This document shows positions 2,621 through 20,971 of a DNA stretch of 20,971 nt, in pieces. A model generated the notes under the pieces. The model saw nothing but the letters and a program-made list of their open reading frames with translations, was not told the DNA's origin and ran no database searches. The stretch's first letter is position 1; each line of letters starts with the position of its first letter. The DNA is from a virus. Location: the IMG/VR virus record IMGVR_UViG_3300020197_003163, positions 1 to 20,971 of that record. One strand, written 5' to 3'. Position numbers and translations under genes: made by a program.

Positions 2621-2759
2621 TTTGTTCCTTTGTGAGTTTGAGTTCTTCTAGGAAAACCTCGAATAAAATACTCTTATAAATATCGTCGGTGCCGAATTGA
2701 TCGGAAAAAATCTGGCCTGCTTCTTTAGCCAATTTAATTTTGTCAGAATCATTTTCCAT
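2559..2759 (-). CDS. Hypothetical 66-aa protein
   Basis: This short, acidic, helical protein has no motif I recognise. Its ATG follows AAAGGAACACTC, a convincing Shine-Dalgarno. Its start codon shares a CATG palindrome (2757-2760) with the ATG of the divergent plus-strand gene, leaving no intergenic space. The downstream 124-aa gene starts inside it. I infer that it is real from the ribosome site and gene packing rather than from homology. Confidence 0.6.
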   Translation of the reverse strand: MENDSDKIKLAKEAGQIFSDQFGTDDIYKSILFEVFLEELKLTKEQNATERNQGLDLSDETGQERS

Positions 2760-3195
2760 GAGTGTTCCTTTAACAGCTTACGCAAAAGTCAAGAATCGCT
2801 ACTGTATTATGTATGTCGGTAATTGCAATGAATACTTGGTGCAACTCAAACTTATAAGACCGAGCATTGAGAAAATTTATCCCGGCATAGAAATATATTT
2901 AGTTTGCAAAGACGACGCTTATTATTTACTCGAAGACTCACCGAAAACACTCAAAGCAAATGAATATGTCAAAGAAAGATATGGCTACACCAGAGAACTT
3001 TTTTGCGACATGCAAAATCATCCCGTCGAAGAATTACTCAAAGAATCACATATCCCAAAATTGCTCTTGAAAACAAAACAAAACAAAGGCGGCAACCTTT
3101 GCTCTATCTACCCTTTCGGTGCCTCACCCACCAGATCGTTAAGTAGAGAACAAATAGAAAAGGTTGAAAAATACGTTATTTCAAAAAACATGTAA
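2758..3195 (+). CDS. Glycosyltransferase-like protein, truncated by an in-frame stop
   Basis: The first 145 residues open with a Rossmann-type strand (RYCIMYVGN) and a second strand pair (GIEIYLVCKDD), then a later IYPFGASPTRSL segment resembling the P-G-A-S nucleotide-sugar region of GT-B enzymes such as family 9. The frame stops at TAA 3193-3195, yet the same frame continues with coding-quality sequence to 3336, so this looks like an interrupted gene. I see no Shine-Dalgarno before ATG 2758; an in-frame TTG at 2740 is no better. The start overlaps the divergent 66-aa gene. Family assignment is tentative; the interruption itself is plain in the sequence. Confidence 0.5.
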   Translation: MSVPLTAYAKVKNRYCIMYVGNCNEYLVQLKLIRPSIEKIYPGIEIYLVCKDDAYYLLEDSPKTLKANEYVKERYGYTRELFCDMQNHPVEELLKESHIPKLLLKTKQNKGGNLCSIYPFGASPTRSLSREQIEKVEKYVISKNM

Positions 3196-4049: not shown

Positions 4050-4214
4050 ATGCCTTCTTTAAACAAAAAAGTCTATAAACCGAAACCTTTGAGCATTAAG
4101 GAGTTTCACGCAAAAAGAAACCGAGTCCTGATTTGGCACGATAATGGCGGACTTGGCGACATATACATGCACCGCATGGTTTTAGTGCGATTTCAGAAAA
4201 TTTCAACACTATGA
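4050..4214 (+). pseudogene. N-terminal fragment of a Rossmann/glycosyltransferase-like gene
   Basis: ATG 4050 opens a 54-residue frame ending at TGA 4212-4214. Residues 24-45 (RVLIWHDNGGLGDIYMHRM) form a first beta-strand plus a Gly-rich loop of the G-G-L-G-D type typical of GT-B glycosyltransferases such as family 9. After this motif the frame decays (VLVRFQKISTL) and stops, so only the first strand-loop-helix of a fold normally over 250 aa remains. No good Shine-Dalgarno precedes the ATG. The stop overlaps the ATG of the next gene as ATGA. I read it as the remnant left by a deletion, though a functional short peptide is possible. Confidence 0.45.
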
Positions 4215-4548: not shown

Positions 4549-5553
4549 ATGGCATTAGGTTTTGACGCAGGTACATATAACCTTGTCTGTTGCAGCAGAG
4601 ACGACAAAGGCAATTTTGCGAACAAGCGAGAAGTAAATGCCTTTTTAGAGCTTCCTCTTGAAAATCGCTTTGTTTTTAATATGATGAAAAATGCTGGTGT
4701 TCCGCTTATTGAGCGTGAAAACGTCGCTTATGCCCTTGGCGAAGCTGCTGTCAATATGGCTTATACAATGAGCCAACTGGAACTCAAGCGACCTATGGCT
4801 CATGGATGCGTTAATCCCAAGGAAAAAGACGCTTTCCAAATCCTGAGCATTATGGTTCACAGCCTATTAGATGATGTAAAACAAGACAACGAAACACTCT
4901 ATTACTGTATACCGGCCAATGCCATTAACGAAGATACGGATGCCGACTACCACCAAAAGGTGTTAGAAGCCATCTTCAAGGCTTACAAGTCCGACAAGGG
5001 CTTTAAAGTAAATGCCAATCCAATCAACGAGGCATTGGCTCTGGTTTATGCCGAGTTAGGCAAAAAGGCATACACAGGTATTGGTATCAGCTTTGGTGCC
5101 GGTATGGTAAACATCTGCTATGCAATGTATGGAACGCCAGTATTCACCTTCGCCATTGTGAATAGCGGCGACTGGATTGACAAGCAGGCTGCGAAAGCAA
5201 CTGGTGAGACACCAACTTTCATCAACAAAGAAAAAACTAAGATTGACTTATCTAAACCACCAACCAACTTGGTAGAACGTGCAATACAAACTCAATATCG
5301 ACTAATGATTGAACATACTATCGCTGGTATCAAGAAGGGTTTGGCCGATGCGAACAAAGCTGTTCATACCGAAGCCCCTGTTGACATAGTGATAGCGGGA
5401 GGAACATCTTCTCCCTATGGTTTTGCAACATTGTTTAAAGATACACTGGTGCAAGCAAACTTATCAATTAAAGTGGGAGAAGTCGTAAAACCAAACGATC
5501 CACTTTATAGCGTAGCTCGTGGTTGCTTAATTGCCGCAGAAGCTGCGAAATAG
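4549..5553 (+). CDS. Actin-like ATPase (ParM/MreB/Hsp70 superfold)
   Basis: The 334-aa protein carries the actin-superfamily nucleotide motifs in order: phosphate-1 GFDAGTYNLV (residues 4-13), a connect-1-like INEALALVYAEL (159-170), phosphate-2 GISFGAGMVN (179-188), the adenosine motif VIAGGTSSPYG (281-291) and a connect-2-like SVARGCLIAA (321-330). The length is close to ParM (about 320 aa), so both lobes are complete. Such proteins bind ATP and often form filaments that segregate plasmids or position replicating phage DNA in the cytoplasm; that role here is inferred. A strong AAGGAG precedes ATG 4549 at ideal spacing. It could also be a non-filament-forming relative. No obvious ParR-like DNA-binding partner or centromere repeat array is visible next to it. 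Confidence 0.8.
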   Translation: MALGFDAGTYNLVCCSRDDKGNFANKREVNAFLELPLENRFVFNMMKNAGVPLIERENVAYALGEAAVNMAYTMSQLELKRPMAHGCVNPKEKDAFQILSIMVHSLLDDVKQDNETLYYCIPANAINEDTDADYHQKVLEAIFKAYKSDKGFKVNANPINEALALVYAELGKKAYTGIGISFGAGMVNICYAMYGTPVFTFAIVNSGDWIDKQAAKATGETPTFINKEKTKIDLSKPPTNLVERAIQTQYRLMIEHTIAGIKKGLADANKAVHTEAPVDIVIAGGTSSPYGFATLFKDTLVQANLSIKVGEVVKPNDPLYSVARGCLIAAEAAK

Positions 5554-5635
5554 CATTAAATTGACTAAGATAACAGTATGAAAGCGAGAACGGGGAATGG
5601 CAATTGTTATATCCCCATGAATTTGAAAGGCAAAA

Positions 5636-6097
5636 ATGAAAAATAATAAGAAGAGTGTAAGCGACTTGGGCGCAGCCGCTTATATTTTAATGCACGAATA
5701 TAAAGTGATTGGTCGTCAAGGGAAAGAAATCTTCTTTCTGCTTACAGCCGATGAACAAACAGCCGAGAAGTTTGACCAACTTACTTTGGATTATCTGTCT
5801 AGTGAGTTCCATCGCTTTGACGCATGTATTATGTCCCTAAAGAAGATTGGGGAATACCCATTTGCTTCAAAATCCCATAGATTTGTCACGGACTTAGGGG
5901 CCGCAGCATTTATCTTAATGCACAAATATAAGGTTTTAGGCAAAAAGGGTAAAGCCATCTATTTTGAGGTAGAAGGCGATGATTCTGCCCGCTTTGATGA
6001 GTTGGCTCTGGAATACCTTTCCAGTGACTTCCACCGATTTGACTCCTGCCTTATGTCTCTAAAGAAAATTGGCGAGTATATAAGCGAACAACATTGA
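5636..6097 (+). CDS. Tandem DUF5659-like protein
   Basis: The 153-aa protein is an internal duplication: about residues 8-74 and 83-149 align closely. Each half begins SDLGAAAYILMH or TDLGAAAFILMH and ends in LSS[ED]FHRFD[AS]C[IL]MSLKKIGEY. The layout (T/S-D-L, Ala-rich helix, a strand with K-V-[IL]-G, a strand with I-[FY]-F, then a C-terminal helix) fits the DUF5659 family as I remember it, a small domain common in phages and usually single. Function is unknown. AAAGG precedes the ATG at proper spacing. The 82-bp gap before it holds a weak GGGGA/TCCCC hairpin but no convincing promoter. Confidence 0.65.
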   Translation: MKNNKKSVSDLGAAAYILMHEYKVIGRQGKEIFFLLTADEQTAEKFDQLTLDYLSSEFHRFDACIMSLKKIGEYPFASKSHRFVTDLGAAAFILMHKYKVLGKKGKAIYFEVEGDDSARFDELALEYLSSDFHRFDSCLMSLKKIGEYISEQH

Positions 6098-6131
6098 TTT
6101 TGCCGTGACTATATATGGCAAGGAGAATGCC

Positions 6132-8249
6132 ATGCAAATAATTAAAGACACTGCTTTGGACCAGAAAATTCAAGCCCTTTTGGACCGAATTCCACAAGAA
6201 GTGGATAAGATGATTGGGCAGTTGAAATCTTCTCTCATTAACCCCATGACACGCCCACAGGCTAGACGTGGGCTATGGGACAGATTTAAGAACACCATGT
6301 CCAATTTGTGGTGGGGAAGGTATAATCAAGATAATCCCTATTTCTGGAACAACAAACTTGGTGACGATCTGGGACAAGTCCACCCAGAACACGTCATGCT
6401 GCGCACTATTCCTATAGAGGAATATCGTCTTTTTCGTGAACATTGCAGACTGCTAGAAACTCAGCTTGATACTCTGCTTGAAGACACAATTCCGGGCACC
6501 GAAAATCTCGCAATAATTCGGCTCATCAATCAGTGGGGCGAGCAACTTAAAACAATGCTCGTCAAAACTGTAAAAGATCATATTTATGGTGCTGGCGGTT
6601 CTGCTCCTGCAACACCAGCGGCAACGCCACCGGCCCCAGCGCCAAAGCCAAAACGAAAGCCTGCTGATGAACCAGTTTGGGATGGAAAAGACCCAGAGGG
6701 TGCCCGCAAGGGAGCCGAGGAAATGGCCAAGCAAATGAAAGTGAGTGGCATTATTGATGAAGAAGAATATCAGCAAATTCTTGGTTTTGCAAAAACCAAT
6801 CCTGAATTAGCCCTCAAGAGAATTAAAGAAATTCAAAAGAGAAAAAGCACAGGAGATGAGGTTGCTGATTCTAAACAACAACTAAGAGACAGATTAGGCG
6901 CTTTAGCCCCCTTCATTGAAGACGAAGAATACAACAAAATCAAAGAGTTAATTGACAATGACGATTTGGAACAAGCAGAAACCAAGATAGCAAAGTTTGA
7001 ATCTGAGAAGCGAGAACCCACCGAAGATGGTGGAATAGATGCCAAGCGTGCGACAGCAATGGAAGACCTCGATAAAGCCAAAGAAAGAGGATTGCCAAGC
7101 GACAAATATGAAGCCTACAAAAAGTACATTACTAGTGCTACAGACCCGGACACCCTTGATCGTATAGTGGGTGACCTGAATCGTACAGCCGTAATTGACG
7201 ATGAATCGCCCCCAGAAAGCGGCACAGTCCCACCGGAAGAAGATGGCGAAGCAGGACCAAGTTATTCATCATATTGGGATAAAAAACCTAATACTGGTGA
7301 TCGTGCATGGGATAATTTAAGCCCAAGTGAAAAAGCGGCTTGGAATAACTACGGTGGTGGGCACGAAAGAAGAATTGCCAAAAAAGGACTTAAAGGCTTA
7401 TTCCTCCCGTGGATATTGAGGCTTGGTGATCCTCGTACTAAACTTCTTTACAATAGGGATCGTCACCATGTTTGGAATGAACTTAGACGGGAAGAAAGAA
7501 TCGAACTTGATAGTGATCCAATAAAAGACCGTCAAGATTTTGAACAAAGAATCGAAAGAGCTAAAAAATTACGACAAGAATATGTTACAAAATTGTCCCG
7601 TAGCCGCAAATCTAGAGTAGAAATAGAAAGAGATAAGCTGGCAGACGGTGCGGGCGAGACTCGTACAGAACCCGTGGCAGACGATGCGGGCGAGACTCGT
7701 ACAGAACCCGTGACTCCAAGTAGGACAACAGAAATTCCAGACGATTCTATGCCGCCAAATACACCAAAAGATCAAGATGGCGACAAGGGAAGCATCGGCA
7801 AAAGACCTGGCGGACCATATCGTACAAGCATGTTAGACGATGATAAAGTTAGCCCACATGACGCCAATGATGTTAGCCCACATGACGCCAATGATGTTAG
7901 CCCACATGACGCCAATGATGTTAGCCCACATGACGCCAATGATGTTAGCCCACATGACGCCAATGATGTTAGCCCACATGACGCCTTAGAGCAAATTGGC
8001 AAAGCAAGAGAAGAAGGAATTATTGACGATGAAACAATGGAAAAACTGACAGATATGGTAATGAACGACAAAATCAAAGATGCCATTACAGACCTTACAC
8101 GATTGCGATATAGACACGGAATAGAAGATGACGACGAAATAGAAACTTGGGCGAAGATGCTCGATTGGGTTGCCCCTCGCAATGTTCTCCGTGAAAAGGT
8201 AGAATACTATAAGAAACTCCTTAGAGAAGGCAGTAAATGTGTTCGATAA
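6132..8249 (+). CDS. Large modular repeat protein, unknown function (705 aa)
   Basis: Modules in order: a Trp-rich N-terminus (residues 45-75); a Pro/Ala linker (157-177); three related helical hairpins of about 45 residues (190-236, 247-292, 304-351), each with a SHOCT-like helix, G-[IL]-[IP]-x-[DS]-[EK]-x-[YE] turn and helix; a basic Trp-containing middle domain (380-495); two 12-residue repeats (504-527); six VSPHDA(ND) repeats (573-618); and a fourth hairpin (619-661) with GIIDDETMEKL. ATG 6132 is chosen over GTG 6105 because AAGGAG lies 6 bases upstream. The 3' end overlaps glmS by 13 bp. Linkers joining repeated hairpins suggest a scaffold or virion-internal protein, but I assign no function. 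Confidence 0.75.
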   Translation: MQIIKDTALDQKIQALLDRIPQEVDKMIGQLKSSLINPMTRPQARRGLWDRFKNTMSNLWWGRYNQDNPYFWNNKLGDDLGQVHPEHVMLRTIPIEEYRLFREHCRLLETQLDTLLEDTIPGTENLAIIRLINQWGEQLKTMLVKTVKDHIYGAGGSAPATPAATPPAPAPKPKRKPADEPVWDGKDPEGARKGAEEMAKQMKVSGIIDEEEYQQILGFAKTNPELALKRIKEIQKRKSTGDEVADSKQQLRDRLGALAPFIEDEEYNKIKELIDNDDLEQAETKIAKFESEKREPTEDGGIDAKRATAMEDLDKAKERGLPSDKYEAYKKYITSATDPDTLDRIVGDLNRTAVIDDESPPESGTVPPEEDGEAGPSYSSYWDKKPNTGDRAWDNLSPSEKAAWNNYGGGHERRIAKKGLKGLFLPWILRLGDPRTKLLYNRDRHHVWNELRREERIELDSDPIKDRQDFEQRIERAKKLRQEYVTKLSRSRKSRVEIERDKLADGAGETRTEPVADDAGETRTEPVTPSRTTEIPDDSMPPNTPKDQDGDKGSIGKRPGGPYRTSMLDDDKVSPHDANDVSPHDANDVSPHDANDVSPHDANDVSPHDANDVSPHDALEQIGKAREEGIIDDETMEKLTDMVMNDKIKDAITDLTRLRYRHGIEDDDEIETWAKMLDWVAPRNVLREKVEYYKKLLREGSKCVR
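7641..7712 (+). repeat. Two 36-bp in-frame repeats
   Basis: Two adjacent copies (7641-7676 and 7677-7712), almost identical, encode ADGAGETRTEPV and ADDAGETRTEPV within the 705-aa protein. Confidence 0.9.
7848..7985 (+). repeat. Six 24-bp in-frame repeats
   Basis: Copies start at 7848, 7872, 7896, 7920, 7944 and 7968; the last is 18 bp. They appear identical at base level and encode VSPHDAND, forming a hydrophilic linker before the last helical hairpin of the 705-aa protein. Base-level identity points to recent slippage or recombination, so copy number may vary between relatives. Confidence 0.95.
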
Positions 8250-9994
8250 TTGGTTGCTCTTTTCAGAGCGATGTAGCTCCTACTATCGTGCGTGGACTTC
8301 AAAAAATGGAGTACCGTGGTTACGATAGTGTTGGAGCTTGTACATTTGATAAACAACTGAATCTTGCACGAGGCGTGGGTAAAGTGCAAGATGTTAATCG
8401 GAAACAAAATCTTGATAAACTGCCCGGTAATGTGGGAATTGGCCATACTCGCTGGGCAACTCATGGGGAAATAAGTGAAAGCAATGCTCATCCTCATGTT
8501 GACACTTTGCTTGGCAAGATTGCTATCGTTCACAACGGGATTATAGAAAATCACGAAGAATTAAAATCTGAATTTGGGTTTGCCCACAATAGCGATACCG
8601 ACAGTGAAATAATTGCCAATCTTTTGGCACATTTATATGTCAAAAGACAAGACCCAAAGAAAGCAGTCCTTGAAGTCGTAAAGCACTTAAAGGGACATTA
8701 TGCTTTTTTGGCCATATTTGACGACGAAACGCTGGTGGCAGTAAGAAACCATGAACCAATTATTGTGGGTCTAGCTCCACTAGGATACATCGTAGCAAGT
8801 GATGTATTGGGATTCATTGAAAACACAAATCAAGCCATTTACCTTGAAAACAAAGAGTTTGCCGTAATAGAACCGCCCAAAGTTCGAGGAATGACAATTT
8901 ACAACTTTGAAGGCAAAGAAGTAAAACACAAGACGGTAGAACTCTCAAGGGAAGTGGCCGATGCTTACAAAGAAGACTACGCCCACTTTACCATCAAAGA
9001 AATTCACGAGCAAATTCATACGGTCAAAAAGATTCAATGCAATACGCCGGAATGCAACACCTTCGATGCTGCCAGAATGCTTTGTGCAGCCAAAAACATA
9101 TATTTCACGGGCAGTGGTACAAGCTATAATGCTTGTTTGATAGGCAAATATCTTCTGAATAAACATAAGATAAAAGTAGAGCCTATCATTTCAAGTGAAT
9201 GCCCATTTTTGAATCACGACTTCGATGAAAAGTCTGTGTTATTGGCAATATCGCAAAGTGGTGAAAGTGCCGATGTATTAGAAACGGTTTTGATGGCAAA
9301 ACATAACGGGGCCAAAATCATCGCCGTTGTCAACAAAACAGCTTCAACTTTGGCAGGCATTTCGGACTTGGTGTTACCAATCAATTGTGGTCCTGAGATT
9401 GGCGTTGCTGCAACCAAAAGTTTTACATCACAAATTCTCTTATTGGCAGGAATTGCTTCCCACATTCAGTTTAGCGACATAAATTTTGGGGCTATATCAA
9501 ATTTAGTCAAACAATCTCTCAGGCAAGAAAACAAGGTTAAGGCAATTGCCTACGAAATCAAAGATGTAAGCGACATTTACATTCTGGGTCGAGGAATACA
9601 CCACCCAATTGCGTCCGAGGCTTCTTTGAAAATAAAAGAACTTGCTTATATCCATGCAGAAGGTTTGGCGGGCGGCGAATTAAAGCATGGCCCACTAGCT
9701 CTCATTGACGAAAGTTCCTATGTGATTCTGCTACATCCAAGTGATGAAACTTATTCAGACATGGAAATCAGTGGGAGGCAAGTCAAAAGTCGGGGAGCCA
9801 AAATCATCGGAATTGCCGAGAAGTACAATTATTTGTACGATCATTGGATAGAAGTGCCAGCAGGCAGCACAGAAATAGAAAGAATTGTATCAGAAATTAT
9901 TCCAATACAACTCTTGGCTTACTACATTGCTTTGGCAAAGAATTATGATCCAGATTATCCCAGAAATCTTGCCAAGTCGGTCACAACCAAATAA
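8237..9994 (+). CDS. glmS: Glutamine--fructose-6-phosphate aminotransferase (isomerizing)
   Basis: GlmS converts fructose-6-phosphate and glutamine to glucosamine-6-phosphate and glutamate, the first step to UDP-GlcNAc. All 585 residues are present (E. coli about 609). The class-II glutaminase domain starts MCSIIGC with Cys2 as N-terminal nucleophile and includes GHTRWATHG and HNGIIENH. Two SIS sugar-isomerase domains follow, with GSGTSYNA, SQSGESADVLE and GVAATKSFTSQ, then GRGIHHPIASEASLKIKEL and EGLAGGELKHGPLALI, ending in the characteristic PRNLAKSVT tail. No key residue seems missing, so the enzyme is probably active. It is the last gene of the plus-strand run, overlaps the 705-aa gene by 13 bp, and its TAA directly abuts the stop of convergent glpX, which supplies its substrate. 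It is unusual for a phage, though chlorella virus PBCV-1 has an equivalent enzyme. Confidence 0.97.
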   Translation: MCSIIGCSFQSDVAPTIVRGLQKMEYRGYDSVGACTFDKQLNLARGVGKVQDVNRKQNLDKLPGNVGIGHTRWATHGEISESNAHPHVDTLLGKIAIVHNGIIENHEELKSEFGFAHNSDTDSEIIANLLAHLYVKRQDPKKAVLEVVKHLKGHYAFLAIFDDETLVAVRNHEPIIVGLAPLGYIVASDVLGFIENTNQAIYLENKEFAVIEPPKVRGMTIYNFEGKEVKHKTVELSREVADAYKEDYAHFTIKEIHEQIHTVKKIQCNTPECNTFDAARMLCAAKNIYFTGSGTSYNACLIGKYLLNKHKIKVEPIISSECPFLNHDFDEKSVLLAISQSGESADVLETVLMAKHNGAKIIAVVNKTASTLAGISDLVLPINCGPEIGVAATKSFTSQILLLAGIASHIQFSDINFGAISNLVKQSLRQENKVKAIAYEIKDVSDIYILGRGIHHPIASEASLKIKELAYIHAEGLAGGELKHGPLALIDESSYVILLHPSDETYSDMEISGRQVKSRGAKIIGIAEKYNYLYDHWIEVPAGSTEIERIVSEIIPIQLLAYYIALAKNYDPDYPRNLAKSVTTK

Positions 9995-10930
9995 TCAGTT
10001 GCCATGATTCGTTGTGAGCCATCGAACAGTTCTGCTTTCAGAACGCATAAACACACTATTTGTTACTGGCCCCCGTGTAGTCCAACGCACGCCCTTCAAT
10101 AAACTTCCGTCTGTAATCCCGGTTGCTGCAAAAGCACATGGGCCTTGAACAAGTTGATCCTGATTCATTTCTGGGCCAAATAGATTCTGATTCCAAAGTT
10201 GTGCAAGGAAGAAACCGCCAAGACATTTCATGGCTGCTGCTGTTATTGCCGCTTCGGGGGCACCACCTACGCCAAATTGCATATCAATGCCGCCATCTGG
10301 TAGACAGGTCGCAATAGCTCCACTTATATCACAGTCTTGAATCAATTTCATTCGCACACCCAAGTCACGCATTTGTTTAATCCACAATTCGTGACGTGAA
10401 CGATTGAGAATACAAACCATCAATTTGTCAACAGGCTTATTAAGAGCATCTGCTACAAAATTACAAATGTCTGGAAGAGGCATAGAAAAGTTCAATTGTC
10501 GGGCTTTCCACGGTGGAATAATGGGGCCAACAGCCAACTTGAGCATATAATGCTCTTCCGTATCAAACATTGAGTCCTTTTCAGAAATAGCAATTACGCT
10601 TGTGGCTTCCGGGCCAGAAGTTACCGTGGGAGTTGTGCCGTCAATAGGATCAACACCAATATCGTAAATTTTGGGCGGGGAAGATAGATGGTGAAAATAT
10701 TCGGCAGGAAGATTCCCCACTTCTTCGCCTTTAAAAAGACCATAACTTTGGTCCTTTTTGCCTTCGCCAATACGGATTACACCTTTGAAATCCATGTTGT
10801 TTAGGCGTCTTCGCATAGAATCAGTGGCATCTCTATCGGCCAAGAGCTTATTGCCGCTTCCTACCCAAGCAGAAGCGGCAATAGCAGCACCTTCTGTGAC
10901 ACGAACCAAATCTAAACCAATATGCTTCAT
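9995..10930 (-). CDS. glpX: Class II fructose-1,6-bisphosphatase
   Basis: GlpX hydrolyses fructose-1,6-bisphosphate to fructose-6-phosphate in a metal-dependent reaction. The 311-aa sequence follows E. coli GlpX (336 aa) throughout: LVRVTEGAAIAA near the N-terminus, LLADRDATDSMR with Asp32, RIGEGKKDQ with Glu56, the metal motif VDPIDGTT with Asp94 and Asp97 (E. coli has Glu at the latter), CDISGAIATCLPD, VGGAPEAAITAAA with Glu226, and ATGITDG near the C-terminus. It is shorter mainly between the GGAPE block and ATGITDG. AAGGA precedes the ATG. It is the last gene of the minus-strand operon, 9 bp after the Gly-Lys-tract membrane protein, and converges on glmS with no spacer. A sedoheptulose-bisphosphatase side activity is possible, as in some class II enzymes. 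Confidence 0.94.
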   Translation of the reverse strand: MKHIGLDLVRVTEGAAIAASAWVGSGNKLLADRDATDSMRRRLNNMDFKGVIRIGEGKKDQSYGLFKGEEVGNLPAEYFHHLSSPPKIYDIGVDPIDGTTPTVTSGPEATSVIAISEKDSMFDTEEHYMLKLAVGPIIPPWKARQLNFSMPLPDICNFVADALNKPVDKLMVCILNRSRHELWIKQMRDLGVRMKLIQDCDISGAIATCLPDGGIDMQFGVGGAPEAAITAAAMKCLGGFFLAQLWNQNLFGPEMNQDQLVQGPCAFAATGITDGSLLKGVRWTTRGPVTNSVFMRSESRTVRWLTTNHGN

Positions 10931-10939
10931 ATTGCTTCC

Positions 10940-11578
10940 TTATTTGTCTGGGAACTTTGGAGGGGGCAACTCATAGAACATAAAATCTTGTTCCTGACTC
11001 ATTGAGCCGCCATTGCTGTTGCCTTCTTTGCCTTTGCCTTTGCCTTTGCCTTTGCCTTTGCCTTTGCCTTTGCCTTTGCCGTTATCCTCACCATCGCCTT
11101 CGCCACTTAAATTATTGCGTTGGCCAACAACGGGCTTTCCAGCTTTCATCATTTTTGAAACCTGAGCCAATTGTTCTTTCATTTTCTCTGAGTAAGGCAA
11201 ACGATAAGCTCTGGGTTCTGAGGGACGCTTCTTGGAAACAAAAGGCGATAACCAAGAAGAAACTTCTGTTTTCTTGGCCCTGAAATCATTGTCCAACTCT
11301 GTAGTCCAAATGTAAATATTTCCTTTGTCTCTTGAGTCAGTCAACGAGGGTTCTTGAACAGCGATCCCATTGATTAAAAATATTTCAGGCATCTCGGAAT
11401 TGCTGGGCCAGCCGCTAAGTTGACTAAGCGACAACCATACCGCAAGACTAAAGTAAATACAAAGGCTCGTGAAGATAATTTTAAGAACCCACCAACCTTT
11501 TGCAAAGATTAGTAGCCACAAGCCAATTGCTGCGAGCAAAATGAAGGCAATAGGAATACCGATAGCATTAAAGTCCAT
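10940..11578 (-). CDS. Two-TM membrane protein with Gly-Lys tract
   Basis: This 212-aa protein starts with two hydrophobic segments (about residues 6-25 and 31-52), then a soluble region of about 160 residues. The soluble part has an acidic GEGDGED stretch, nine consecutive Gly-Lys pairs (about residues 166-183), and a short tail FMFYELPPPKFPDK. I know no family for it. Its position 2 bp after the ExbD-like gene and 9 bp before glpX, on the same strand, suggests a third subunit or regulator of the ExbB/ExbD-like complex. The basic tract could contact phospholipid head groups, nucleic acid or acidic partners; this is speculation. Confidence 0.65.
   Translation of the reverse strand: MDFNAIGIPIAFILLAAIGLWLLIFAKGWWVLKIIFTSLCIYFSLAVWLSLSQLSGWPSNSEMPEIFLINGIAVQEPSLTDSRDKGNIYIWTTELDNDFRAKKTEVSSWLSPFVSKKRPSEPRAYRLPYSEKMKEQLAQVSKMMKAGKPVVGQRNNLSGEGDGEDNGKGKGKGKGKGKGKGKGKEGNSNGGSMSQEQDFMFYELPPPKFPDK
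11027..11080 (-). repeat. Nine 6-bp tandem repeats (GGCAAA)
   Basis: On the minus strand nine exact GGCAAA units encode nine Gly-Lys pairs in the two-TM protein. The unit is a multiple of three, so copy-number change alters tract length without a frameshift. Confidence 0.95.
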
Positions 11579-11580
11579 TG

Positions 11581-12270
11581 TTACTCATCCTCTGGTGGAA
11601 TATTTGGATCGAAATTTATGGGATTTTCGGGATTACCGTTCCCCAAATCGGGATCGACAGGGAGGTTTTGCCCCTGAGCGGCATTAGCCAAAGGCTTATA
11701 ATAGAAGGAAGTCGATGTGACTTCGCCTTTGTCATTAACCACAAATCTGAATCCCGTCTTTTCTTCCCCGTTATTCACAAGGATTACTTTATTTTGAACA
11801 ATAGGGGTATAGGCAGGAGATATTTTGTCGAGTTGAATTGTGACTTCGATAGGCTTTAAGTTTGCCGGGTCATTCCTTCTATACAGATGGACGTTAACGA
11901 CGTATTCTCCCCGTGATGTGCCTCTCAAAGTAACTATTTCTCGATTTTCTTTGTATTCAATTCTTCCGAATTGAGTATTCACTATGTCATTTCTTTTACC
12001 AAGATCGTCTCGGTCTAAGTGCATTAGGCCGTCTTCACGTCTTTGGAAAAACACCAATTTGTTATCGGGGGCCAAAACGTATGTGTCAACATCATCGTCA
12101 AATTCTTCACCCCAAGTGACGGTGATGATATACGCACCTTTTACGTCCGGCGTTTTCTTGTTTTGGTTCATCAGGGCGAAAGCCAAAACGAAGAGAGCGG
12201 TAAAAGCAATTAACGTATTAAAAAGCAAGTCCAAGAAAGACGTATTACAGCTATAACTCCTAGTTCTCAT
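11581..12270 (-). CDS. ExbD/TolR-like membrane protein with YfaP/DUF2135-like domain
   Basis: The 229-aa protein has one N-terminal membrane helix (about residues 15-34) starting NTSFLDLLFNTL. Asp14 sits where ExbD/TolR/MotB proteins hold the proton-carrying Asp (the F-x-D-x-x-x-x-L-L pattern). Instead of the usual ExbD domain, residues 46-150 form a beta-rich region, ITVTWGEEFDDDVDTYVLAPDN through GEYVVNVHLYRR, resembling the YfaP/DUF2135 fold (T-W-G, D-V-D-x-x-V-x-x-P-D, G-x-Y-x-V). The C-terminus is Pro/Asn-rich and acidic. It overlaps the ExbB-like gene by 11 bp, implying coupled translation and a 1:1 complex. The membrane-helix assignment is fairly secure; the C-terminal fold is from pattern memory. 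Confidence 0.7.
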   Translation of the reverse strand: MRTRSYSCNTSFLDLLFNTLIAFTALFVLAFALMNQNKKTPDVKGAYIITVTWGEEFDDDVDTYVLAPDNKLVFFQRREDGLMHLDRDDLGKRNDIVNTQFGRIEYKENREIVTLRGTSRGEYVVNVHLYRRNDPANLKPIEVTIQLDKISPAYTPIVQNKVILVNNGEEKTGFRFVVNDKGEVTSTSFYYKPLANAAQGQNLPVDPDLGNGNPENPINFDPNIPPEDE

Positions 12271-12937
12271 TTTTCACCTGTGAATTTTCGGATTCCGAAT
12301 ATAATGCTTTCAGGGCCACTTCTTCTGCAAGGATCGCCAATTCTTTTTCTTCGCTCAAAAGAGTTCCCTTGAAAATCTCAGCCTCTGTTTTTTGCGGATT
12401 TTCCGAAATGAGGGATGGAGAAGAAACCAAAGTATTCTTCTTTGGTTTACCAATTCTTTGAAGCTCCAAACTCAAAATGAAGTATTGTATTTTCAGCAAA
12501 ACACCGCAGACAAGACCTACCAAAGTGGTGTACAGGGCCGTAGACATGCTCTTGCCAAGATCAGACAATAGTGATTGAACGGTTTGCGGCTTGTTCATAT
12601 CAATGCCTTCAAACCCTGAAAGCATGAATATGAATCCGACAATCGTTCCAATCATGCCTAGAGTCAAACAGAATTCACTAAAGAACCAGCCCACTTCTTC
12701 CTGACGCAGATAGTCTTCAAAAGATGCTTTATCTTTGGGTGGTGACGCACACACACGAAGTATGTAACCCCCACAAAGAAGGGAGAAAAAAACAAAAATG
12801 CCAAGAATTGCCCAGCTTAAATAACTACTGTCCTTTTTCCAAAGTACGGCATAAAAGCCAGCGTATTGAACAAATATTGCGGCGACACATATCACCGTAA
12901 AAAAAAGCCACCATTTAAGAAAAGGGACATATTTCAT
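12260..12937 (-). CDS. MotA/TolQ/ExbB-family proton channel protein
   Basis: The 225-aa protein has four predicted membrane segments (about residues 9-30, 40-62, 90-108 and 130-155). The family signature lies in the last two: LGMIGTIVGFIFMLSGF (93-109) and LGKSMSTALYTTLVGLVCGV (127-146), matching the ExbB/TolQ L-G-L-L-G-T-V-x-G-M and A-L-x-T-T-x-x-G-L patterns. ExbB-type pentamers surround two ExbD-type helices and couple proton flow to mechanical work. The partner gene follows with an 11-bp overlap. A cytoplasmic helical tail (about 180-225) extends past the channel core but is far shorter than the tail of the Zorya protein ZorA. AAGGA precedes the ATG with 7-base spacing. Confidence 0.85.
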   Translation of the reverse strand: MKYVPFLKWWLFFTVICVAAIFVQYAGFYAVLWKKDSSYLSWAILGIFVFFSLLCGGYILRVCASPPKDKASFEDYLRQEEVGWFFSEFCLTLGMIGTIVGFIFMLSGFEGIDMNKPQTVQSLLSDLGKSMSTALYTTLVGLVCGVLLKIQYFILSLELQRIGKPKKNTLVSSPSLISENPQKTEAEIFKGTLLSEEKELAILAEEVALKALYSESENSQVKNEN

Positions 12938-13060: not shown

Positions 13061-13432
13061 CTAATTGGAACTATCCTGCTTTTGGGCTAGTTTTGCCATC
13101 AAATCAATATTTGCAAAATCATTGGGGTTCGGCTTAGGTGTTTTTGGAAGATCACGAACCTTGGCAATTATTGCTGCGTGTTCTGGGTTATCTTCATAGA
13201 AGACTTGCTCTTCAACAATGCCCAATACATTGGTCAGGTTATAAAAGTTTTTACACCCGGTTGTTGGGTGAGTTGCAAAAATCCCATCTTCATCGAGAGA
13301 GTCAATAACGCAGGTAAAAAAATCCGAGAACTGCGTGTCGGAAAAGTTTTGTTTGGGAATTGGAGAAGTAAGTATTGTGCAGACCTTGCCAACAAACCTG
13401 TCTTGCAACTTCTTAATCGTAGTGAGTTTCAT
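13061..13432 (-). CDS. Hypothetical 123-aa protein, coupled to the primase gene
   Basis: I do not recognise a family. Residues 10-75 look like a small beta-barrel (RFVGKVCTILTSPI, then FTCVIDSLDEDGIFATHP and NFYNLTNVLGIVEEQVFYED), followed by a Pro/Asn-rich C-terminal tail. The ATG overlaps the primase stop as ATGA, so it is probably translated by re-initiation and may work with the primase. A 6-bp inverted repeat (13043-13059, GGATAA/TTATCC) follows closely but lacks a U tract. Confidence 0.6.
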   Translation of the reverse strand: MKLTTIKKLQDRFVGKVCTILTSPIPKQNFSDTQFSDFFTCVIDSLDEDGIFATHPTTGCKNFYNLTNVLGIVEEQVFYEDNPEHAAIIAKVRDLPKTPKPNPNDFANIDLMAKLAQKQDSSN

Positions 13433-14466
13433 AAGAAAATATCCGCTCCCGTTCCATACGGGGAATTATGGGTAATTGGTTTTTGCGACCGCAAAACATA
13501 ACTGTGCAGAACTGCGGGGCCGAGAGAAACGAACATTTCGTTCCAATCCTTGAACCCGTTGGCGGGTCGCACATAAAGTAAATTGGTACCAGTAGCTATT
13601 TTGAGAGATAAAGAATTATAAATTTCTGTCATTCTCTTTGTGCCACTTTTACCGGCCTTATCACGGTCTAAGCACAAGACAATCTTGTACCTAGATAATA
13701 TAGTAACTTGTTTTTCACCTATGTTTTTCCCGCCACACGCCGCTGCGTTTAATTCAGATAAGAAAAGGCTTTTGGCGTTAAATTCGCCTTCGCATAGATA
13801 TAGGTAGAAATCTTCTGGTGGCCACGGGCCAGCCATGTAAATTACATCTTCTTTGCCCACACCAACTTCTTTGGGTGGACCCAAATAACGCAGTTTGGCC
13901 TTATCGCTGATGTGTCGCCCATTCCAATAAATCAATTTTCCAGTTTGATCGTAGTAAGGGATAATTATTCTGGCTTTGTACGGAGCTTCCGTGCAAACGT
14001 AATATCCGTCGATGGGGATGTGCCGTCCCTGCAAATATTCTTCCGCTTTTTTTCTCCACCAGTTATTGAGTGGCAAGTTGGATATAAGTAAACTACCACT
14101 TGGCAATTGCAGGTCGGGTTTTGGTGGTTCCGCTTTTATTCCGTCCTGTTCAGCAAAATATTCTTCGAGTCGGCGTTCGAGGTCCGAGATGGTACTTTGG
14201 CCGGTCAGAATAGATAAAGCTGTATCTCGGTCGCACTTTTCTACAAGTTGGACGAGTCTGACCAAACTGCCTTTTTTGTCGGTCTTAAAACAATGGAATA
14301 CACCGAGTTTTCTTTTCTTTTTGCCGCCAGACGGAGAACACCAAAGGTGAAAATTATCGTCATCAGGTTCAAAAACAGAGTTGATACGGATTTCTTTATT
14401 TTTGACGACAACCTCGCCAAATTTCCGCTCAGCCCATTCTTTGAATCTTTCAAAATTGATTGCCAT
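13429..14466 (-). CDS. DNA primase (CHC2-like finger plus Toprim)
   Basis: The 345-aa protein starts with a zinc-finger-like region: His40 and Cys43 in FHLWCSP, then GVFHCFKTDKKGS (His58, Cys59), which matches the second half of a CHC2 finger except that the last Cys is replaced. A core follows with ARIIIPYYDQTGKLIYW (165-181), then the Toprim motifs LCEGEFNA (224-231, Glu226) and VLCLDRDKAG (263-272, Asp267 and Asp269), and FKDWNEM (305-311). These residues bind the metals for RNA primer synthesis. No helicase domain is present, unlike T7 gp4, so it is a stand-alone primase of DnaG/T4 gp61 type. The last codons overlap the 123-aa gene, and it diverges from the Cas4-like nuclease with a 41-bp gap. 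Its own ribosome site is weak (AAGGT, distant). Confidence 0.82.
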   Translation of the reverse strand: MAINFERFKEWAERKFGEVVVKNKEIRINSVFEPDDDNFHLWCSPSGGKKKRKLGVFHCFKTDKKGSLVRLVQLVEKCDRDTALSILTGQSTISDLERRLEEYFAEQDGIKAEPPKPDLQLPSGSLLISNLPLNNWWRKKAEEYLQGRHIPIDGYYVCTEAPYKARIIIPYYDQTGKLIYWNGRHISDKAKLRYLGPPKEVGVGKEDVIYMAGPWPPEDFYLYLCEGEFNAKSLFLSELNAAACGGKNIGEKQVTILSRYKIVLCLDRDKAGKSGTKRMTEIYNSLSLKIATGTNLLYVRPANGFKDWNEMFVSLGPAVLHSYVLRSQKPITHNSPYGTGADIFL

Positions 14467-16716: not shown

Positions 16717-17250
16717 TTATGGAAGTGGACAATCCCTCAAAGTCATAGCCATTTTAACATTGATAGCATCGCCGCTATCTAGGTAGGCTTCTTCGGATAG
16801 CGAAACACTTGATATTAAAACTCCATCGTTATTATTCTGAGTTGTCAAGAACAACGTCGATACTGGCCCCCAAGAACCACCGGCAGCACTAAAGGTCACA
16901 ATTGAACCAAGAGCTTTGCTGTATCCTTCATTGGCAGTAATATACCATCCGGTAGGTTGATCTGGCTTAGAACTTACGGCTTGTCTGAAATAACCATTTG
17001 AATTAGGTTCATCCAAAAGAGAAGTCATTGTATCAGAAATATCTAATGAGATTCTAGCATCCAATCCTAAGTAGTAAAATTGGGGAGGTATGCTTCCGTC
17101 GCCGGGGTTTCTGAAAAGCGCCTTTAAGAAATACGCTTCGCCTTCTGCATGGAGAGTATTGTAGAGGTTTTTCTTGGACCAAAGAACCTTACCATTGCGG
17201 ACTTGTTCTATTTCCAAAACCTTCATTATGCCATTCCAATCTTTACGCAT
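16717..17250 (-). CDS. Probable phage structural protein, unknown family (177 aa)
   Basis: The protein is beta-rich and Gly/Ser/Asn-rich, with segments such as FYYLGLDARISLDIS (58-72) and VTFSAAGGSWGPVSTLFLTT (118-137). It reads like a phage tail- or capsid-associated beta-sandwich, but I cannot name a family. The start is ATG 17250: AGGAG lies 6 bases before it, inside the 2H gene, and the start overlaps the end of that gene by 8 bp (ATGCGTAA). An internal ATG at 17226 is possible, since the domain-like sequence begins there. It is the last gene of the terminase-side minus-strand cluster. Confidence 0.6.
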   Translation of the reverse strand: MRKDWNGIMKVLEIEQVRNGKVLWSKKNLYNTLHAEGEAYFLKALFRNPGDGSIPPQFYYLGLDARISLDISDTMTSLLDEPNSNGYFRQAVSSKPDQPTGWYITANEGYSKALGSIVTFSAAGGSWGPVSTLFLTTQNNNDGVLISSVSLSEEAYLDSGDAINVKMAMTLRDCPLP

Positions 17251-17809
17251 TGCTTGCTCCTAATTTAATTTCGTGTTTCGTGCCATCTTTAGAAGAGAAT
17301 ATCAGGTTATTTATTTGGAATTTTTCACCATTAAATTCTTCAAGCCCTTTGTATGTTCCGCCTTTGTTTTTGTTTAAATAGGCTATTGTCACATGCGGGA
17401 TATATTTTGGGTATGTCTGGACAACATCTAAGTTCTTAGTTAAGATGGAATTGATGTAATGTAGATCGGGACTATCAACATCTATTTTCAAAACATCAAA
17501 TACGTCGTTAGAAAATAAAGACATTTTGCCAAGCCGCACTGTGAATGGTTTGATATTTTTCAACAAATCAACAACAATTGTTTTATATCTGTCTAAAATC
17601 CCGTAAAGTACGGTTATGTGAATGTTGTCTTCACGACCGAACGACGGCCTGTCTGGATTAGAAAACACATATTTCTCAGGTATGTTGTCATATCCCCAAG
17701 AAATAATTTCATCAGCAAGTCTATCTGGCACATTAAGTTGGACAGAAGAATAATCTCTCTTTATTTTGCCGCTTTCAACCAAAAAGTGCCTGAATATCTT
17801 CGTCTCCAT
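17243..17809 (-). CDS. 2H phosphoesterase (LigT/CPDase-like)
   Basis: The 188-aa protein has the two H-x-[TS] motifs that define the 2H superfamily: NIHITVLYG (His64, Thr66) and IPHVTIAYL (His139, Thr141), about 75 residues apart, each followed by a hydrophobic strand. The family opens cyclic phosphates or 2'-5'/3'-5' bonds in RNA or cyclic nucleotides; some phage members (Acb1) cleave the CBASS second messenger. Substrate here is unknown. ATG 17809 is preferred over ATG 17860 because the longer form adds 17 basic residues read from the preceding gene's coding sequence; neither has a strong ribosome site. It overlaps the 112-aa gene by 35 bp and the 177-aa gene by 8 bp. Confidence 0.82.
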   Translation of the reverse strand: METKIFRHFLVESGKIKRDYSSVQLNVPDRLADEIISWGYDNIPEKYVFSNPDRPSFGREDNIHITVLYGILDRYKTIVVDLLKNIKPFTVRLGKMSLFSNDVFDVLKIDVDSPDLHYINSILTKNLDVVQTYPKYIPHVTIAYLNKNKGGTYKGLEEFNGEKFQINNLIFSSKDGTKHEIKLGASNA

Positions 17810-18110
17810 CTTTAGGTTCTTTCTTTTTTCGGTATTCTTCGAGTCGCAACTTTTCGGCACCTATCATGGCATCCAATTGAGAAATTACTTTCTTGGCAAT
17901 CTCTGGATGCATCAATTCGTTATTGACCATGACCCAATTATTGCCGGTTGTTTGTTGTGCTTCTCGATTGGCACGTTTGGCTTCCACCGATTCAAGTTTG
18001 CTCAAAGCGGTTTTAAGGTGAAATCGCACGTCACTTAGGGCGAAATCGTTTGGTAAATTCTTTATAGCGTTGACCAGATATTCTTTGGATTCATTTGTGT
18101 TATTTTTCAT
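17775..18110 (-). CDS. Hypothetical 111-aa helical protein
   Basis: The protein is mostly helical and charged, with a central helix of Lys/Glu/Arg around residues 33-55 and an acidic-basic C-terminus (KKKEPKDGDEDIQALFG). I do not recognise a family. Two ATGs are adjacent (18113 and 18110); the second fits the TAGG ribosome site better. The start overlaps the stop of the 311-aa gene by about a dozen bases, and its 3' end overlaps the 2H gene, so the cluster is translationally coupled. Position after the terminase is compatible with a head or packaging accessory, but nothing in the sequence shows it. Confidence 0.6.
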   Translation of the reverse strand: MKNNTNESKEYLVNAIKNLPNDFALSDVRFHLKTALSKLESVEAKRANREAQQTTGNNWVMVNNELMHPEIAKKVISQLDAMIGAEKLRLEEYRKKKEPKDGDEDIQALFG

Positions 18111-19075: not shown

Positions 19076-20971
19076 TCAATTAGTAAATGATTCTAAAATT
19101 TGACATAAGTTGTTTTCTAAAAACAAGATAGGAGGAATTATAGCCCATCCAAATTCTCTGAGCAATTTGTCTCCTCTTCTTCTTGTGTCAAAGACAACAC
19201 CCGGAAGTATTGTTTCTTTATCTACGCCAAGAAGGTCTACATCTTCATCTTCGGCAAGCAAATCCTCTGGCTTTCCTTCCAGCAATTCTCGCTTAATCTC
19301 TTCATATACTTGAGTTTTGACGCTCGACAAAATTTCTTTTGGAATTTCGGCCCCGATAGGTATATCTCGAAGCATAGAATCACGAACCAACAGGGCTATG
19401 CACATAGCCATGATGGAATCATCGTGTTTACCCTTTTGGGCTTGCGCCTTCTTTGTGATTGGATTGTATTCAAACGTACCTAATTCATTAGTAAATCGAA
19501 TGCTGTTGACTCGGATAGTTTCGTTGGTCAATCTATTTTGCAAGGATTCCAAGAAAATAGGTCTATTCGTTTGATTTATCTTAATGCCCGGCTTCGTTGA
19601 TTTGCCTTTCGTGTCTTCGTAATATAAATTTTCGTAGAACAACGTATGTTGTAAATTGCTCAGGACGGCACCGCCCGGACCCATATTTTCTACGGCCACA
19701 ATTGCATTATTGTAATAAACGCCAAGCTCATTCAAAATTTGGGCAAAAACGTGTGGCTCGACAGTATTTGAATAGAATTCGGCAACCTGTTCTAGCGTGG
19801 CAGTATCAATGATCTGGAATGCGCTATTGTCGTTATTTTCGCCCTGACCTTCGGCACAGTCCGCACCGATGACATACTCATGACCGTCAACGGGTTCCTT
19901 CCACATCCACAACGCACCCCGGTTGTCATCCTTTTCGATATGTGAAACAAAACCTGTTTTGTTGGCCCATTTTGGGAATAATTTACGGCTGGGATTGTTG
20001 TTGAGCGTTTGCTCCATAAGTTGACGAATAATCTTGGTCGAGAAATAAGTATCGCCTGTACCAAGGAACTCACGCAAAACTTCCTGCAAGAAGCCCTTTT
20101 CGCCAAGCTGGGCTTTTTGTTCCGCAACCCAATCGGTATTGTTGTAATCTGGGTGTTCCCAATAATCCAAATCAATGATGTGAAACCTATTGAGACTTTC
20201 TTTTGCTTCAACGTAAACTTGATGATACCAGTTGCCGATACCATTAACCGTGGAAATAAGCGTACAAGAACCACCAGTAGAAAGTACTGGCCACATAGCT
20301 TTCCAATGAGTTTCCATGTCTGGAATAAAGGCCGCTTCGTCAACGATCAAAAATGTAACGGCTTTACCACGGGCAGAAACCGGGGAGTGGAACTTAATTG
20401 CTGAACCAGTTTCGGTAAACATTTTCAAGTGGTCATTCCATTTACCAGCCTTTTTATCGGGTGCCAACCATGCCGGTAAGTGTTCCACGGCACGGTCAAT
20501 AATCATGCCAATATCCGTAGCTTCTTTATCAGCCTTGGAAAGCAACATGATCTGCTGGTCTAGCTGGAACAAACACCGCCATAGACCCCACAAAAGAGTT
20601 ACGGTGGTCAATCCACCTTGACGGAACTTGCTAATTATGTTAAATCTGTGGTTGTTGTAGTCATTGATAACTTTGTGCTGGTACTTGTACAAAATAAAAG
20701 GAATCAACCCCTTCATCGGGTGTAGAATCTTTACATATTTGTGGCAAAAGTACGCAAAGCTATTACAACACTTGATAATTTCTTTCTGGCGTCGTATCTC
20801 GTCATAAGTATCGGCATGTTCCTTCGGCTCGTCGGGGTCGATTTCCAATTGGTACTTGTCGAAAGAAAAATACTTTGGGTCATATTCACATTCGTAGTAT
20901 TCTTTGAGCGATTTATACTGACCTCGCCAAACAGAGTCCTCTTTGGACTTGGGAAAAATGGGTTCTCCCAT
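19076..20971 (-). CDS. Terminase large subunit (T4-like packaging ATPase/nuclease)
   Basis: The motor that cuts and pumps concatemeric DNA into the capsid. The 631 visible residues contain Walker A KFRQGGLTT (115-123), Walker B TFLIVDEAAF (206-215) with the catalytic Glu, and coupling motif ISTVNG (239-244). The RNase H-like nuclease follows with acidic residues Asp371 (VIGADCAEG), Glu428 (AIVAVENMG) and Asp517/Asp518 (KHDDSIMAM). The spacing is that of T4 gp17 and both enzymatic domains are complete. The ATG lies exactly at the window edge, so an earlier start is possible. Residues after about 540 form an acidic tail (LLAEDEDVDLLGVD) and a hydrophobic end beyond the nuclease. No small terminase subunit is recognisable in the window. 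Confidence 0.95.
   Translation of the reverse strand: MGEPIFPKSKEDSVWRGQYKSLKEYYECEYDPKYFSFDKYQLEIDPDEPKEHADTYDEIRRQKEIIKCCNSFAYFCHKYVKILHPMKGLIPFILYKYQHKVINDYNNHRFNIISKFRQGGLTTVTLLWGLWRCLFQLDQQIMLLSKADKEATDIGMIIDRAVEHLPAWLAPDKKAGKWNDHLKMFTETGSAIKFHSPVSARGKAVTFLIVDEAAFIPDMETHWKAMWPVLSTGGSCTLISTVNGIGNWYHQVYVEAKESLNRFHIIDLDYWEHPDYNNTDWVAEQKAQLGEKGFLQEVLREFLGTGDTYFSTKIIRQLMEQTLNNNPSRKLFPKWANKTGFVSHIEKDDNRGALWMWKEPVDGHEYVIGADCAEGQGENNDNSAFQIIDTATLEQVAEFYSNTVEPHVFAQILNELGVYYNNAIVAVENMGPGGAVLSNLQHTLFYENLYYEDTKGKSTKPGIKINQTNRPIFLESLQNRLTNETIRVNSIRFTNELGTFEYNPITKKAQAQKGKHDDSIMAMCIALLVRDSMLRDIPIGAEIPKEILSSVKTQVYEEIKRELLEGKPEDLLAEDEDVDLLGVDKETILPGVVFDTRRRGDKLLREFGWAIIPPILFLENNLCQILESFTN

Follow-up and report, generated by a model that had tools for sequence, protein, structure and literature searches.

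The glmS/glpX locus lies on phage DNA

We analysed a virus fragment of 20,971 bases (IMG/VR record IMGVR_UViG_3300020197_003163; this whole stretch is hereafter called the window), the ~21-kb piece through which the genome of this phage is known. It carries two convergent genes for sugar-phosphate enzymes: glmS (8237..9994, plus strand), encoding an isomerising glutamine--fructose-6-phosphate transaminase of 585 amino acids and of Nitrososphaerota (archaeal) type, and glpX (9995..10930, minus strand), encoding a class II fructose-1,6-bisphosphatase (FBPase)-like protein of 311 amino acids from a phage-specific subfamily with a DCD loop and Gly at the Met65 position. As an original prediction made from the letters alone had stated, both genes are full length and their stops abut at 9994/9995; the open reading frame (ORF) list and the junction sequence CAAATAATCAG agree on this, the TAA of glmS (9992-9994) touching the minus-strand TGA of glpX (9995-9997). 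The abutment varies among relatives: the two genes are ~190 bp apart in L260, a homing-endonuclease-like ORF (4655-5843) parts them in the near-identical relative L003, and in L012, another such relative, that same gene (11769-12668) directly follows glmS at the contig end. The start of glmS overlaps by 13 nt the end of an upstream gene for a protein of 714 amino acids (6105..8249, plus strand; g6105), so that glmS is probably translationally coupled to it, while glpX lies behind a co-directional three-gene unit (10940..12937, minus strand) with which it probably forms an operon.

The original prediction would have failed had this been host chromosome, and that source was ruled out by the terminase and by synteny. 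The large terminase subunit (19076..20971, minus strand), which marks the contig as phage DNA, is 55% identical to that of LR756511, a 595-kb uncultured huge phage; the window also encodes a DNA primase (Toprim; 13429..14466, minus strand), which is part of a conserved block, and a PD-(D/E)XK nuclease. About 21 window genes recur with their order kept in a 532,729-base contig (L005, also G002) and in shorter relatives. A volactin-family actin homologue (4549..5553, plus strand; PF25216, E 3e-72), encoded in the run of plus-strand genes that includes glmS, also marks the conserved block. Given the terminase, the primase and the synteny with the 532-kb and 595-kb huge phages, the glmS/glpX site is on a phage genome. 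A megablast of the window against phages gave no match, nor did an Rfam scan of the window, and the literature searched held no description of this glmS/glpX locus.

GlmS is a complete enzyme of Nitrososphaerota type

By sequence, the glmS ORF is beyond doubt a genuine full-length member of the GlmS family. Its domain set (a class II glutamine amidotransferase and two SIS domains; SIS match E 4e-40) is complete, it passes the equivalog TIGR01135 (551.3 bits against a cut-off of 418.05), and its alignment to the E. coli enzyme (4amv, E 1.6e-104) runs from one end to the other. For this ORF and for glpX alike, the Pfam, NCBIfam and PDB homology scores exclude chance resemblance. Retained are Cys2 (Cys1 of the mature enzyme), RWATHG, HNG, TD, SQSGE, KHGPLAL and the C-terminal PRNLAKSVT; the window copy thus shares domain set, catalytic residues and length with the E. 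coli enzyme (TIGR01135; 4amv/1jxa), from which it differs in being phage-encoded and of Nitrososphaerota type.

Among viral copies, the closest to the window group (members 83-100% identical) is that of L260 at 55%, all others being at ~37% or less. Archaeal copies are 53-55% identical; for genomes belonging to the order of a Nitrososphaerales metagenome-assembled genome (MAG) the values span 53-57% depending on the aligner. Bacterial GlmS in the sampled genomes reached at most ~40% identity to the phage copy (~37% for enterobacterial GlmS). Among the 590 genome contigs listed, no GlmS exceeded ~40% except that of L180, an archaeon; none did so in 807 plasmid records, and 99 genomes of the phylum of G036 held no close GlmS at E <= 1e-130. 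A bacterial host as the donor was rejected, since no copy above ~40% was present in the sampled genomes and plasmids. In the tree, the clade of the window group and L260 (support 100/99) is nested within a Nitrososphaerota clade (100/100), and in a smaller tree archaeal monophyly without the phages was rejected by the approximately unbiased (AU) test (p = 0.011). The exact archaeal sister of the phage GlmS, at a support of 81/10, is not fixed by the tree. In the archaeal contexts examined, glmS is chromosomal and follows two genes that resemble those for ribosomal proteins (S13 and S4, judged by eye), directly so in four of the five, a position which argues that it is native there.

Within the phages, glmS of L260 likewise sits behind g6105, in the corresponding position, and the last bases of the L260 contig encode TIRWLTTNHGN, the C-terminus of a convergent glpX. 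A backbone tree placed L260 as sister (100/100) to L005, which has glpX and in which no GlmS was found anywhere in 532 kb; the one weak match was a stand-alone amidotransferase ORF. Hence either glmS was ancestral and L005 has since lost it, or the gene has passed from one phage to another. The amidotransferase of this 532-kb relative (L028, 784-1956) is of class II, lacks SIS domains and can pass for a weak GlmS match in searches.

GlpX is an old gene of this phage lineage with an altered pocket

Three IMG/VR scans yielded 40 viral glpX loci, and 39 of these, from contigs as large as 532,729 bp, were of one type. The remaining locus (L415), a bacterial-type GlpX on a 2.7-kb contig, was set aside as likely contamination. 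In a tree built on the loci from two of the three scans, phage GlpX was monophyletic with respect to the sampled cellular copies (100/100, stem length 0.95), to which it is 38-46% identical. A recent transfer from a bacterium was ruled out because cellular copies reach at most 45-46% and fall outside the phage clade. The position of glpX, between g13061 and g6105/g5636, is constant in related contigs, and the gene is found there in every relative of the lineage that covers the spot except LR756511, which by the backbone phylogeny lost it. Tree and position indicate that this phage lineage has long had GlpX. The original prediction had called for phylogeny to tell a virus clade from recent host transfer; the outcome, an old virus clade for GlpX and an archaeal source for GlmS, was one that its author had not foreseen.

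Membership of the window ORF in the GlpX family is, on homology, beyond doubt (PF03320, E 8e-90 over residues 3-309, 301 bits against a gathering cut-off of 27). The protein keeps D32, E56, D60, D94-P-I-D97, T99, Y128, R177/R179 and E226, and of these D32, E56, D94, T99 and E226 make up the metal ligands and the Thr nucleophile. The claim that catalytic residues are in place therefore stands for GlmS and for these residues of GlpX, and does not extend to the whole GlpX pocket, in which DGD has become DCD (residues 199-201) and Met65 has become Gly (Gly64 in the phage copy), so that the usual IxDGD loop is not found. In class II FBPases, for which metal-ligand and nucleophile roles have been described (PMC10289334), the DGD segment contacts the furanose (fructose ring) hydroxyls (PMC10289334). 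DCD is present in 39 of 39 phage-type loci, whereas all 16 cellular copies compared have DGD or DGE; likewise Gly, beside the metal-ordered loop, occupies the Met65 position in 39 of 39, as against Met or another non-Gly residue in 16 of 16, and both positions lie outside the patterns used in the wider IMG/VR scan for glpX. A change of E59 to K was dropped as a diagnostic feature, because IGEGKKD was itself among the patterns searched for, and E or I also turned up there in the wider scan. Compared with known class II enzymes (PF03320/TIGR00330; 6ayy, 7js3, 3d1r), phage GlpX shares the family, the metal ligands, the Thr nucleophile and the RxR phosphate motif; it differs in forming a phage-only clade with the two pocket changes and a conserved ...HGN C-terminus, and the window copy scores below the equivalog cut-off of TIGR00330 (232.2 against 259.3 bits), which a related phage copy, L046, passes at 291.1 bits. 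In view of the DCD and Gly changes and of these two scores, FBPase activity of the phage GlpX is likely but not certain.

The same observations bear on a different reading, in which phage GlpX would be an altered or redox-sensitive sugar-bisphosphate phosphatase that need not feed GlmS. The Cys in the fructose-contacting loop and Gly64, shared by all phage-type loci and by none of the cellular copies, point that way, as do the sub-cut-off score of the window copy and the retention of GlpX without GlmS in most phages; the preserved nucleophile and metal ligands, the strong PF03320 match and the score of L046 speak against it. We regard this as possible, though doubtful. Somewhat more speculative still is the suggestion that the DCD clade might constitute a phage-specific class of sugar-bisphosphate phosphatases, with altered substrate or redox control, one branch of which became coupled to an archaeal amino-sugar synthase.

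A bacterium as the most likely host

An archaeal type of GlmS could also mean that the glmS-bearing viruses infect ammonia-oxidising archaea and took the gene directly from their host. The nesting of GlmS in Nitrososphaerota would suit this, and PF25216, the family of the actin gene, owes its name to haloarchaea. However, tRNA-Tyr has a long variable arm, a bacterial trait, in two relatives (G002 and G004), and a Shine-Dalgarno-like motif stands before 39-53% of the ATG starts of the window (47%) and of its relatives G002, G004 and W01; the same script gave 18-19% for two archaeal genomes and 49% for regions of E. coli. Neither the tRNA-Tyr arm nor the Shine-Dalgarno frequency is thus of the archaeal kind. 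In addition, relatives carry a GT9 heptosyltransferase, and volactin was absent from 61 genomes of the order of the Nitrososphaerales MAG, Haloferax volcanii being positive in the control. An archaeal host, disfavoured as the default by the tRNA-Tyr, Shine-Dalgarno and volactin results, therefore seems highly improbable to us, and the features of translation point to a bacterium as the most likely host. Because GlmS is nested in Nitrososphaerota and the phage relatives have a bacterial look, the gene was most likely taken up from ammonia-oxidising archaea into a bacteriophage lineage, a probable transfer between domains.

Proposed accretion of the two genes rather than a dedicated module

The original prediction had proposed a hexosamine feed module, and what holds of it is that two real enzymes with consecutive textbook reactions stand on phage DNA; that they form a conserved unit is not borne out. 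GlmS was absent from 35 of the 36 other GlpX-bearing viral contigs tested, the exception being G028, an unrelated 164-kb phage that encodes GlpX and full-length GlmS ~34 kb apart. Conversely, GlpX registered in none of 50 other GlmS-bearing viral contigs, where L260 is a known miss with just the last 11 glpX codons on its contig; both counts are weak for short contigs, as many of the contigs are fragments. Six large relatives (contigs of 532, 595, 343, 254, 223 and 164 kb) were searched by tblastn with E. coli queries, which remote homologues may escape, and no GlmM or GlmU, for which the original prediction had suggested looking, was found in them. These searches likewise gave no match to genes of the pentose-phosphate path or of upper glycolysis (tal, tkt, zwf, gnd, pgi, pfk and fba), nor to Ugd, and a pentose-phosphate supply role for GlpX was rejected on the lack of tal, tkt, zwf and gnd. 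Homologues of RmlA-type nucleotidyltransferases (43-46% identity) were present in four of the six, RmlC in two and WecE-like proteins in two.

A dedicated module selected as a unit would draw on the consecutive reactions, on the retention of the convergent arrangement by the window group and, across its ~190-bp gap, by L260, and on the presence of both enzymes in G028. Set against it are the co-occurrence counts, the placement of the genes in opposite transcription units, the missing GlmM and GlmU and the degraded state of a neighbouring glycosyltransferase, and we consider it unlikely. At the other extreme, GlmS could be passing cargo of little consequence that is heading for loss. The absence of glmS from L005, the sister of L260, fits this, as do the homing-endonuclease-like insertions beside glmS in L003 and L012 and the decayed genes nearby; but GlmS is full length, with its catalytic residues intact, both across the group members that are 83-100% identical and in L260 at 55%, and such a fate strikes us as quite improbable.

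The reading that we prefer, with a probability of roughly 0.5, is that this huge-phage locus holds two auxiliary sugar-phosphate enzymes made neighbours by accretion, an old GlpX and an archaeal GlmS. In the proposed scheme, GlpX would dephosphorylate fructose-1,6-bisphosphate or a close relative to give fructose-6-phosphate for phage-directed sugar-nucleotide synthesis, a role suggested by the RmlA-type nucleotidyltransferases of the relatives. An ancestor of the phage group would have captured glmS from a Nitrososphaerota archaeon, with insertion behind the 714-amino-acid gene and converging on glpX. GlmS may then divert fructose-6-phosphate and glutamine to glucosamine-6-phosphate, from which host GlmM and GlmU would complete the path to UDP-N-acetylglucosamine. 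That the two together carry fructose-1,6-bisphosphate through to glucosamine-6-phosphate is plausible but unproven, and the likeliest reading of GlmS is as a later, dispensable branch towards glucosamine-6-phosphate. Several observations weigh against this scheme: the 595-kb LR756511 is without both genes and the 532-kb G002 without GlmS; glpX is grouped with the three-gene unit and glmS with the 6105 gene, and the convergent pair would have no common transcript; the pocket changes and the sub-cut-off score leave room for another GlpX substrate; GlmM and GlmU are missing from the relatives searched; the tRNA evidence and most of the Shine-Dalgarno evidence on the host come from relatives, not from the glmS-bearing subgroup; and the genome of the window phage itself is covered only by the 21-kb fragment.

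Neighbouring genes and other observations

The 714-amino-acid gene upstream of glmS, which belongs to no known family and contains DVSPHDAN repeats, holds this position in relatives whether or not they have glmS. It has six tandem repeats of the DVSPHDAN type and diverges rapidly, being ~30% identical to the version in L005 while its neighbours hold 80%. The unit upstream of glpX consists, all on the minus strand, of genes for a MotA/TolQ/ExbB-like channel (12260-12937), a protein with a single transmembrane segment (11581-12270) and a membrane protein (10940-11578). This trio lies within ~4 kb of glpX also in the distant phages L051, L052 and L056 and within ~8 kb of glmS in two other phages (L315 and L316); it shows weak similarity to ZorA and is absent from the nearest glmS-less relatives.

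The nearby glycosyltransferase-like genes, with which the module had been thought to fit, lend it no such context. The GT9 heptosyltransferase-like sequence (4050..4214, plus strand), intact in L012 and other relatives, is a remnant of 54 codons, and the other gene so described (2740..3195, plus strand), which has no known family, is cut short relative to L012 by a premature in-frame TAA. Recoding of TAG as the cause of this break was ruled out, the stop being TAA.

The volactin-family actin is 68-100% conserved across this huge-phage lineage and is possibly a phage cytoskeletal protein. Elsewhere in the window, positions 17243-17860 encode a 2'-5' RNA ligase/LigT-like protein with a weak, below-cut-off resemblance to the anti-CBASS protein Acb1 (PF23474, E 1e-4), and positions 32-1065 (19795-20820 in L005) hold a short-repeat array, where relatives read a long ITPITIPDIN repeat protein that is possibly a fibre or adhesin. 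The 532-kb G002 (L060-L086) has 55 tRNA calls, of which three have a CUA anticodon (ARAGORN 'Pyl') and one a UCA anticodon, which hints at stop-codon suppression or recoding.

Relation to known systems and significance

Other viral GlmS proteins (phrog_13807) are also full length on phage contigs and are ~30-37% identical to window GlmS. Their genes often stand beside SDR/RmlB, Ugd or WecE-like sugar genes, whereas the window glmS sits in the conserved terminase-primase-volactin block. PBCV-1, a eukaryotic algal virus, has a GFAT (GlmS-type) enzyme together with UDP-glucose dehydrogenase and hyaluronan synthase. The parallel drawn with it in the original prediction goes no further than the theme of a virus-encoded GlmS-type enzyme; the six relatives gave no Ugd match (hyaluronan synthase was not searched for). 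Surveys of soil and of trench sediment (PMC12615777, PMC12448302) have listed viral glpX among auxiliary metabolic genes; the entries concerned are annotation lists without subfamily, synteny or active-site analysis.

The present analysis adds that GlpX is conserved in a wide range of large phages and carries a diagnostic change in the substrate loop, and that an amino-sugar enzyme that most likely came from ammonia-oxidising archaea has been kept at one site, through deep divergence, in a phage lineage of bacterial character. Should both enzymes prove active, huge phages would steer host hexose phosphates to glycan precursors, and not, as is usually discussed for cyanophages, to nucleotides via the pentose-phosphate path.

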